Assembly: GCF_030464365.1 (NCBI RefSeq)
Contig: NZ_VCYI01000007.1
Span: 1-64,000 of the forward strand
Reading direction: 5' to 3'
Source: Methanoculleus methanifontis
GTDB taxonomy: Archaea; Halobacteriota; Methanomicrobia; Methanomicrobiales; Methanoculleaceae
DNA: 64,000 nucleotides
The translations under genes and the position numbers were made by a program. How positions within the stretch are numbered: position 1 is the first letter of the stretch; every line of letters begins with the position of its first letter. The notes under the pieces are model-generated. The model saw only the letters and a list, made by a program, of their open reading frames with translations. It had not been told where the DNA came from and searched no databases. This document shows, piece by piece, positions 20,589 to 23,103 of this stretch.

Positions 20589-21716
20589 TTAGAGGAAGTC
20601 GATGACGGGGCCGCCGCTCGGGGCGTCCCTTGCCATGCGCCTGCCGGACTGCGCGCTGGACCGCTGCGAGACCTGTTCGTAGGCGTGGTGGCTTCCGAGG
20701 ATCTGTGCACTTTTTACTCCGGTCATGACTGCCATGACGCGAACTCTTCCTTCGTAGTCGCTGTTCACCCGCGCTCCCCAGATGACGTCCGCGTGGGGGT
20801 CGAGTTCGTAGGTCAGGGAACTTGCGATCTCTTCGGCGTCCTGGAGGGTCAGGTCGTTCCCACCCGTGATGTGGATGAGGCTCCCCGTGGCTCCACGGTA
20901 GTCGATGTCCAGTAGGGGATGGTTGAGGCACTCGTGAACAACGTTCTCGGCCTTGTTCTGCTGCTTGCTCTCGCCGACGAGCATCACGGCGACGCCTCCC
21001 TTGCTCATGATGGCACGCACGTCGGCGTAGTCGATATTGATGAGCGAAGGCTCCGTGATCGTCTCGCTGATGCCCTTGACTGTCTCCGCGATGAGCTGAT
21101 CCATGACCGAGAACGCCTGACCGAGCGGGAGGTTCGGCACGTATTTGATGAGGCGGTTGTTGTCGAGCACGATCACCGAGTCGGCAGCGGACGAGAGTTG
21201 TTCAAGCCCTTCTTCCGCACGAAGAAGCCGGGCCTTTTCGACCTGGAAGGGATAACTGACCATGCCGACGACGATGGCGCCCTGCTCCTTTGCGATCTGC
21301 GCGACGACCGGGGCGGTGCCGGTGCCGGTCCCTCCGCCCATGCCGGCGGTGATGAAGACGAGGTCGGCGTCGCAGAGGAGGGTCTCCAGGGTCGGCCGGG
21401 CCATCTCGGCCGCACGCCTGCCAACGTCCGGGAAACCGCCGGCTCCAAGGCCTTTAGTGAGCGACTTGCCGACAAGCACCCTCTTATCGGCCTGGATCAT
21501 GTCCAGGTGCTGCTTATCTGTATTGACTGCGATCGTTTCGGCACCACTGACCTGCATGTGGTACAGACGGTTGACGGTGTTGTTGCCCGCACCGCCGCAT
21601 CCTACGATGACAATACGTGGCTGGCCGATGATGTCGTCTTCACCATCCGCCATGTCTGTCTTGCGGTACTTTTCTTGTTCTGCGTGTTTTAACGCCTCGT
21701 TGATGATCGTCTGCAT
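20589..21716 (-). CDS. ftsZ: Cell division GTPase FtsZ (FtsZ2-like)
   Basis: 375 residues from the ATG at 21716, seven bases after AGGAGG; a TTG one codon earlier is possible. The GTPase signature is [10 protein letters not shown], the T7 loop [11 protein letters not shown] and the nucleotide site [15 protein letters not shown]. The N terminus ([19 protein letters not shown]) and the overall sequence resemble haloarchaeal FtsZ2 more than FtsZ1, judged by eye. FtsZ polymerises into the division ring. It is downstream of a ribbon-helix-helix gene with an 11-base gap, the cdrS-ftsZ2 arrangement known from haloarchaea. Confidence 0.95.
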
Positions 21717-21727
21717 CAATAATCCTC

Positions 21728-21907
21728 CTAAACTTTGAATGAAATCTGGTCGGCCTCACGCAGAACACGGTTTCCATGCCGTTCAAGAAGCGCCCGGACT
21801 GAATACCTCACAGCCTCCGATACCGTGGGGAATTCGCCGGCCTCCACCAGCTTCTCGAGCATCTCAACCTGTTGCCGTGGCAATCTGATTGTAATCCGAT
21901 CCATCAT
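21728..21907 (-). CDS. cdrS: Ribbon-helix-helix regulator, CdrS-like
   Basis: 59 residues. [22 protein letters not shown] is the beta-strand and first helix of a CopG/MetJ-type DNA-binding domain, and [16 protein letters not shown] the second helix. In haloarchaea the short RHH protein CdrS is co-transcribed with ftsZ2 and regulates division genes. Here too the gene directly precedes ftsZ. The start may be at 21907 or 21904. Several TGTC-GACA palindromes just upstream (21920-22051) are plausible binding sites for autoregulation, an inference from symmetry and position. Confidence 0.85.
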
Positions 21908-21919
21908 TTCAATCACTCA

Positions 21920-22051
21920 TATCTGACATGTGGCTGCCCCTTGTCGGTCATTTGTCAGACAAACGTAACCTTTTCGTCTGACTGTATCAGATAAGGCATA
22001 ATAATATTCGGATGATATATATGTCTATCGATATGCAATCATGTCTGACAT
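21920..22051. promoter_or_regulatory. Cluster of TGTCNGACA palindromes between cdrS-ftsZ and cobD
   Basis: TTTGTCAGACAAA at 21951-21963 and ATGTCTGACAT at 22041-22051 are near-perfect palindromes with the same core TGTC-W-GACA. Weaker relatives are ATATCTGACATG at about 21919-21930, GTCTGACTG at about 21976-21984 and TATCAGATA at 21985-21993. RHH regulators bind short symmetrical sites in tandem, so these are candidate operators for the CdrS-like protein. The region also holds TATA-like boxes (22013-22021) and the divergent promoter of cobD. Confidence 0.6.
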
Positions 22052-22104: not shown

Positions 22105-23103
22105 ATGAGAGATAATCTCCCTGAAAGGGCGGAACATGGCGGCCGGGTGCGGTGGCACCGCACCCGGGAGAGGGGTGACCTGCTTGATTTCAGTGCCAAC
22201 GTGAATCCGTATCCTCCAGAGTTTCCCTGGATTCCGGACGCTTCGGCGCTGAAAGATTACCCCGACGACCGGTATGAGACGCTTAAAGAGGAAATCGGCA
22301 AAACACTCGGCCGCGATGCCGCAGAGATCGCCGTTGGCAACGGTTCCGTCGAGTTGATCCGCGCGTTCTGTTCTGCCGTGCTCAGGGCTGGTGATACCGC
22401 CCGTATTGAGCCGCCGACGTTTGCCGAGTATGAAATGGCGGTGAGGCTTGCCGGTGCCCGGTCTACGGCGGATGACGACGGAGCTGCTGTCTGGTTCGTC
22501 TGCAACCCGAACAACCCCACCGGGAAACTCCTGACCCGGACGGAAGTCCTCAGGCTGCTTGATGATGCCGCCGGTCAGGGAACGTGCCTCTTTCTTGACG
22601 AAGCCTTCATCGAACTCTCCGACCCGGCCCAGAGCGTTGTCGACGTTTCGGACGAGAACCTCTTTCTGCTGCGCTCCCTGACAAAGAGTTTCGCCGTGCC
22701 GGGCATCCGGTTCGGTTACGCCTTCGGCGCGCCCGAGCTCATCGAGAAGGTCGAGACAGTCCGCCTTCCCTGGACGGTGAACACGTTCGCCGAATCCTTC
22801 GCGATCGAGGCTTTCCGGCACTACGACCTCCTCGAAGAATCGCGGAAGCGGATTGCCCGGGAGCGGGCCTGGCTCTGCAGCCACCTTGACGCTCTCGATC
22901 TCGGCTATGCGCCGCCGTCTGCGAACTATATTCTAATTGAAGTCCCGCTGGAGACGGAGGTGCTCGTTGAGCGGCTCCTCTCCCGCGGCATTCTGGTGCG
23001 GGACTGCCGGTCGTTCGGGCTTCCCCGTCACATCCGCGTGGCCGTGCGGACGCATGAAGAGAACCGGCAACTCATCGAGGCGCTCGAAGCATGCTTGCCC
23101 TGA
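22105..23103 (+). CDS. cobD: L-threonine-O-3-phosphate decarboxylase CobD
   Basis: 332 residues. A PLP aminotransferase-fold protein beginning EHGGRV and LDFSANVNPYPP, the CobD-type entry. Substrate and cofactor residues include VGNGSVELI, NPNNPTGKLL, FLDEAFIEL and the PLP lysine in LRSLTKSFAVPGIRFGYAFG. CobD gives (R)-1-amino-2-propanol phosphate for the nucleotide loop of cobamides; histidinol-phosphate aminotransferase is the alternative but the neighbour cobY favours CobD. It overlaps cobY by 13 bases. Confidence 0.88.
   Translation: MRDNLPERAEHGGRVRWHRTRERGDLLDFSANVNPYPPEFPWIPDASALKDYPDDRYETLKEEIGKTLGRDAAEIAVGNGSVELIRAFCSAVLRAGDTARIEPPTFAEYEMAVRLAGARSTADDDGAAVWFVCNPNNPTGKLLTRTEVLRLLDDAAGQGTCLFLDEAFIELSDPAQSVVDVSDENLFLLRSLTKSFAVPGIRFGYAFGAPELIEKVETVRLPWTVNTFAESFAIEAFRHYDLLEESRKRIARERAWLCSHLDALDLGYAPPSANYILIEVPLETEVLVERLLSRGILVRDCRSFGLPRHIRVAVRTHEENRQLIEALEACLP

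Follow-up and report, generated by a model that had tools for sequence, protein, structure and literature searches.

The 64-kb window, the whole stretch of Methanoculleus DNA that we analysed, carries a small RHH gene directly upstream of ftsZ on the reverse strand, with 11 nt between the cdrS stop codon and the ftsZ ATG at 21716. The sequence-only reading was thus right to compare this arrangement with the cdrS-ftsZ2 synteny of haloarchaea. Between the cdrS start codon and its probable promoter lies a series of short boxes at 11-bp steps, which we call the comb. The features of the locus are as follows.

20589-21716, reverse strand: ftsZ, co-oriented with cdrS (Pfam Tubulin and FtsZ_C; TIGR00065 at 422.6 bits, over the cut-off)
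21728-21904, reverse strand: cdrS homologue, a 58-residue RHH protein from the ATG at 21904, or 59 residues from the preceding in-frame ATG at 21907
21912-21918, reverse strand: probable ribosome-binding site GAGTGAT, from the sequence, directly after the last box
21920-21928, reverse strand: comb box TGTCAGATA, the last before the ribosome-binding site, 8 of 9 to consensus, same position in 33 of 38 Methanoculleus-family loci
21931-21939, reverse strand: comb box GGGCAGCCA, degenerate, in the 11-bp register
21942-21950, reverse strand: comb box TGACCGACA, in the 11-bp register
21953-21961, reverse strand: central comb box TGTCTGACA, the first palindrome, exact and at the same position in 32 of the 38 loci
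21964-21972, reverse strand: empty comb position AAGGTTACG, register kept, no box match
21975-21983, reverse strand: comb box AGTCAGACG, 7-8 of 9 in 36 of the 38 loci
21985-21993, reverse strand: TSS-proximal box TATCTGATA, 10 bp from the next box, placed from aligned upstream sequences
22013-22022, reverse strand: probable TATA box of cdrS-ftsZ, TATA centre at -115; the transcription start would lie at about 21990-21994
22042-22050, no strand: isolated TGTCTGACA, the second palindrome, upstream of the TATA box and out of register, exact in 7 of the 38 loci
22105-23103, forward strand: divergent cobD-like gene (TIGR01140, E 2.5e-80, 270 bits, below its 290.6 cut-off)

The product of the small gene is an RHH protein by its match to Pfam RHH_1 (PF01402; E 2.8e-7, 30.7 bits against a cut-off of 20.5), one of three such matches in the whole genome. 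It also matches NCBIfam NF058555, haloarchaeal CdrS (E 3.6e-16), but its 58.9 bits fall below the 100-bit cut-off of that model, and we therefore treat it as a CdrS homologue and not as the haloarchaeal equivalog. The predicted structure (strand 3-7, helices 10-21 and 28-43, strand 53-57; pLDDT 84) has the strand-helix-helix fold. Among named isolates, its closest relatives are in M. sediminis (100% identity) and M. chikugoensis (98%).

Of 199 Methanomicrobiales genomes, 190 had a CdrS relative, as did 130 of the 132 with completeness of 90% or more and contamination of 5% or less. Our comparison set comprised 90 Methanomicrobiales loci from six families. RHH gene and ftsZ stood together in all 90, with gaps reaching 178 nt in family f2. 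Some f2 genomes (L051-L053, L055 and L056) had a cdrS-ftsZ gap of about 171-175 nt, into which L052 and L056 fit an additional small ORF some 50 codons long. Conservation of cdrS-ftsZ2 in Methanomicrobia is already stated in PMC7439475.

The same reading had picked out two TGTC-W-GACA palindromes and some weaker sites upstream of cdrS. Both palindromes are present as exact 9-mers. The first, TGTCAGACA at 21953-21961, has symmetrical flanks that extend it to TTTGTCAGACAAA (21951-21963), and the weaker sites turn out to be members of the 11-bp comb (21920-21983), together with the box at 21985-21993 at a 10-bp step. The proposal that the palindromes are RHH operators may well hold for the first, which sits within the comb. 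It does not extend to the site at 22041-22051, which is off the comb (89 bp from the box at 21953, where the in-register distance is 88) and rarely exact within the family. The palindromes are real, but they are one part of a larger element, whose 11-bp phasing, position downstream of the promoter and deep conservation the earlier reading had missed.

Conservation of TGTCWGACA in relatives, set beforehand as the refuting test, proved strong. At least one exact copy lay within 350 bp upstream in 64 of the 90 Methanomicrobiales loci. Across 48 nonredundant 130-bp leaders we counted 216 boxes with 7 or more of the 9 positions matched, compared with 29.2±5.4 in dinucleotide shuffles. The distances between these boxes were 11, 22, 33, 44 and 55 bp in 77, 91, 71, 30 and 31 cases, respectively, where about 0.1 would be expected for each, and no other distance up to 60 bp occurred more than seven times. 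A typical comb has six boxes with a two-base spacer, and some lineages have nine (as in L130). We scored the comb with the box centre left free, against a background of 1,884 random 170-bp stretches (99.5th percentile 3.6, maximum 9). The score was at least 7, a clear comb, in 85 of the 90 loci and at least 5 in all of them. Other non-haloarchaeal families (f7, f8, f18, f19, f27, f28 and f31) contributed 14 loci, 11 of which also scored 7 or more. The family f9, which we guess to be Archaeoglobus-like, reached this score in only 3 of 12 loci because its leaders hold between one and three boxes, in some cases at a 10-bp step.

A perfect TTWWATA was present in 49 of 101 loci, and from these we took the position of the comb relative to the promoter. 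Their TATA centre was a median of 114 nt ahead of the start codon, and the first comb box started a median of 35 nt after that centre (interquartile range 31-37). The usual distance from TATA to transcription start is 25-27 nt, which would place the comb in the transcribed leader, beginning near +1 and reaching the ribosome-binding site. In the window that site, GAGTGAT, is presumably a match to the methanogen Shine-Dalgarno sequence.

Single boxes are not enriched in the DNA as a whole. The exact 9-mer TGTCWGACA occurs four times in the 2.61-Mb genome, twice at this locus, with five copies of the backward control pattern, and the 64-kb window holds seven one-mismatch matches against 8.7 expected. 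The evidence is thus position and conservation, not frequency. We dropped the other two exact genomic copies (C26:152103 and C30:12523), which lie in or beside unrelated ORFs; no second box was noticed by eye in the 600 bases around each.

A two-box pattern with up to three mismatches matched the cdrS leader in all 17 Methanoculleus genomes searched. There were 20 further matches in these genomes, compared with five for the control, and none was a recurrent site outside coding sequence. The sole two-box sequence repeated between genomes (G040, G072 and G108) was inside an ORF, and L191 and L198, with three boxes each, were single cases. As the further matches do not recur, in a search that would miss sites with one weak box, the comb in Methanoculleus looks dedicated to cdrS-ftsZ, unlike the haloarchaeal CdrS regulon with its 18 ChIP sites (PMC8406309). 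Extra two-box sites were sporadic in 30 diverse genomes (up to two mismatches), a non-exhaustive search in which nine genomes gave no match at all, their cdrS leaders included.

Several sites seen in passing deserve mention. Possible extra CdrS sites, as judged by their boxes, lay beside an aminotransferase gene in two f4 genomes (L399 and L400), and three boxes beside a GTPase gene in one f5 genome (L409) may mark another target. A two-box-like sequence, CGRCTGACAATTGTCTGACA, was present in three copies about 421 bp apart (G163:C14:70341, 70763 and 71184). Viral contigs (L149:1-170, L147, L154, L157, L160 and L164) carried arrays of TGTCWGACA/TGTCCGTCA at 11-bp steps; in L149, close to the end of the contig, at least 13 boxes are arranged in a higher-order repeat of 33 bp. 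In the parts of these contigs that were retrieved, no homologue of CdrS or FtsZ turned up.

The sequence-only reading had suggested that corrinoid synthesis might also be affected, through an overlapping cobD promoter. The analysis gives this no support. The site at 22042-22050 is exact in only 7 of the 38 Methanoculleus-family loci, and although a divergent cobD-like gene is present at 89 of the 90 Methanomicrobiales loci, it was found at none of 20 loci elsewhere and, among lineages that still carry the comb, at none of 12 non-haloarchaeal loci outside the order. Combs persist where cobD is not adjacent, which indicates that the comb belongs to cdrS-ftsZ and not to cobD. For this reason, and for the poor conservation of the 22042-22050 site, we rejected the involvement of cobD, and we do not consider the cobD-like gene part of the comb element.

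Four lines of sequence comparison point to CdrS as the probable binder of the comb. PMC8406309 describes ChIP-seq in H. volcanii with 18 CdrS sites, including ftsZ1 (-50), dacZ (-47) and psmB (-72), and a symmetric motif from whose 10th base the distances are counted. The likeness that we draw is at the ChIP target genes and not against the letters of the ChIP motif, which is given as a figure, and our sample was 24 haloarchaeal genomes of the same phylum, none known to be H. volcanii. In 20 of the 24 genomes the region upstream of ftsZ1 had a pair of GTCWGAC boxes (12 or more of 14 letters matching) at a spacing of 11, compared with 0-3 genomes for each other spacing between 8 and 25; with 13 of 14 letters required, the counts were 16 and 0. 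These boxes stand just before BRE/TATA. The two-box element was found at dacZ in 10 genomes at 12 of 14 letters and in four at 13 of 14, counts from a 200-bp sub-region picked after an earlier result had been seen. The third target, psmB, had the element in none of the 24, which counts against a simple general rule.

The boxes also vary with the protein. Where CdrS has R3-T5-R7, within residues 3-7 that form a beta-strand in the predicted model, the centre was A/T in 194 of 211 GTCNGAC boxes. Among the 111 loci of this type, which include nine haloarchaeal loci without a comb, the majority centre was A/T in 95 and G/C in three, with 13 tied or lacking boxes. Where CdrS has K3-S5-R7, it was G/C in 20 of 21 boxes and at 12 of 12 loci. 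Single loci with K3-T5-R7 and K3-A5-R7 had the centres C,C and C,T. This covariation of residue 3 and box centre reflects few independent changes.

The comb is also lost with its gene. Nine of 11 ftsZ2-type loci without an intact cdrS had no comb, with scores of 2-6 (99th percentile of random sequence, 6), while the remaining two, from congeners (f8 g61), scored 10-11 with what looks like a relic comb. Two genomes without cdrS (G002 and G089) were set aside from this comparison, as they also lack the window-type ftsZ. The one clear case of joint decay is G208, where cdrS is a remnant with three single-base frameshifting gaps and a lost start codon, while its congeners keep both cdrS and comb. 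Compared with the congener G261, all eight comb boxes of G208 have lost matches (total 54 to 38), and 11 of 44 shared consensus letters are lost with none gained. Changed positions in the leader were broadly similar within boxes (14 of 54) and outside them (17 of 46), as under relaxed selection.

We think it probable, from these comparisons, that the cdrS-ftsZ leader is an autoregulatory operator comb through which CdrS would exert negative autoregulation of cdrS-ftsZ. In this reading the boxes, 9-bp palindromes with the consensus TGTCWGACA, would form an operator that repeats every 11 bp and extends from near the transcription start as far as the ribosome-binding site. We infer that CdrS binds it in methanogens, each box holding one dimer whose beta-ribbon (Arg3, Thr5 and Arg7) would lie in the major groove. 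Adjacent dimers would be one helical turn apart on the same face of the DNA and could bind cooperatively. The filled comb would stop initiation or early elongation of cdrS-ftsZ and so keep CdrS and FtsZ near a set point, with levels rising again once growth had diluted CdrS.

The sign of this control comes from position. CdrS might instead bind the comb and activate, or bend or organise the DNA, and we regard this as unlikely. The haloarchaeal ftsZ1 boxes lie upstream of BRE/TATA, as they would for an activator, whereas the methanogen comb runs downstream of TATA through the leader, where archaeal regulators usually repress. The argument for activation comes from the haloarchaea themselves, where CdrS is reported to activate ftsZ2 (PMC7439475) and probably ftsZ1 (PMC8406309).

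As the whole comb is probably transcribed, the repeats could act in the RNA, with complementary boxes forming hairpins in the 5' leader that control the translation or stability of the cdrS-ftsZ mRNA. Six leaders fold better on average than their shuffles (z -1.7 to -5.7), boxes 2 and 3 pair slightly better within than across sequences (6.36 against 5.85 of 9, p=0.001, 33 nonredundant segments), a signal not predicted by the DNA model, and L060 has a perfect inverted repeat despite changed inner boxes. However, palindromic boxes fold by construction, the predicted folds differ among species, and covariation is absent between boxes 1 and 4 (p 0.85). Several leaders, that of L130 for one, line up nine boxes, most of them A-centred, and have no symmetric hairpin. 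A DNA element fits the strict 11-bp spacing over six families, and it also fits box orientations that are almost balanced (T 53, A 43) and the recurrence of the two-box element upstream of the ftsZ1 promoter in haloarchaea. Rfam gave three weak matches, the best 16.9 bits against a gathering score of 59.5, and none of the three overlapped the comb on the coding strand. Control through the RNA in place of the DNA thus seems improbable to us; a contribution of the RNA over and above the DNA comb is possible but need not be invoked.

That the comb is the operator of another protein, with CdrS merely sharing the operon, is very unlikely given the four lines that point to CdrS. The haloarchaeal cdrS-ftsZ2 promoter is bound by CdrL in ChIP (PMC7439475) and the CdrS operon is absent from the 18 CdrS ChIP sites (PMC8406309), but the haloarchaeal CdrS targets share box and pitch with the comb, the box centre covaries with CdrS residue 3, comb and cdrS are lost together, the genome has just three RHH_1 matches and CdrL is reported to be restricted to Halobacteria (PMC7439475).

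The comb that we attribute to CdrS has parallels in known systems. None of the open literature searched, outside which most subscription papers and preprints lie, was seen to describe the comb, the letters of the box or autoregulation by CdrS in methanogens, and searches there on the control of FtsZ level in methanogens returned nothing. RHH dimers of MetJ and Arc bind short palindromic or half-site boxes in cooperative arrays, with the Arc half-sites about 11 bp apart. These tandem operators are bacterial or phage, have other sequences and no link to cell division, and comprise 2-5 units, compared with 6-9 in the comb. The nearest PDB folds to CdrS are ParD-type RHH antitoxins. ParD and RelB antitoxins autoregulate their own operon, whereas CdrS has no toxin gene, its partner is ftsZ and the comb in its leader is longer.

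The closest parallel is haloarchaeal CdrS-FtsZ2, with its small RHH gene directly upstream of ftsZ and the same R3-T5-R7 beta-strand. In haloarchaea the need for CdrS in normal cell division is an experimental finding. Upstream of ftsZ1 and, less regularly, of dacZ, the haloarchaea also carry the GTCWGAC box, as a pair with 11-bp spacing. Their cdrS leaders (L137-L144 and L375), in contrast, have no comb (0 of 9) and instead carry GTAAGAC/GTCTTAC boxes, the first pair of which is 11 bp apart in five of the nine. Most of these leaders have another GTAAGAC/GTCTTAC box shortly before the start codon, and these are candidate CdrL sites.

It is conceivable, though we put the chance at somewhat below even, that the comb is the ancestral archaeal control of FtsZ in Halobacteriota, with a ladder of CdrS over its own leader metering FtsZ, and that haloarchaea rewired it. 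GTAAGAC boxes would have replaced the comb in the haloarchaeal cdrS leader, at similar positions and presumably with the new paralogue CdrL as their reader. CdrS would have become free to act in trans, through the old box, upstream of ftsZ1 and dacZ. In the Archaeoglobus-like genomes the box centre would have changed together with CdrS residue 3.

Little is known of how archaea set the level of FtsZ, and the comb offers a simple circuit whose cis element is defined and whose binder is probably CdrS. The sequence comparisons suggest a self-limited ftsZ operon circuit conserved across methanogens and their relatives, and a recognition code that may be readable, Arg3 with an A/T centre and Lys3 with a G/C centre. 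The comb also predicts the letters of the haloarchaeal CdrS site. The move of the box from cis control of its own operon to trans control of ftsZ1 would be a marked case of regulatory rewiring. In the methanogens themselves, the leader suggests that a small protein may control its own production and that of FtsZ, forming a self-limiting division switch.
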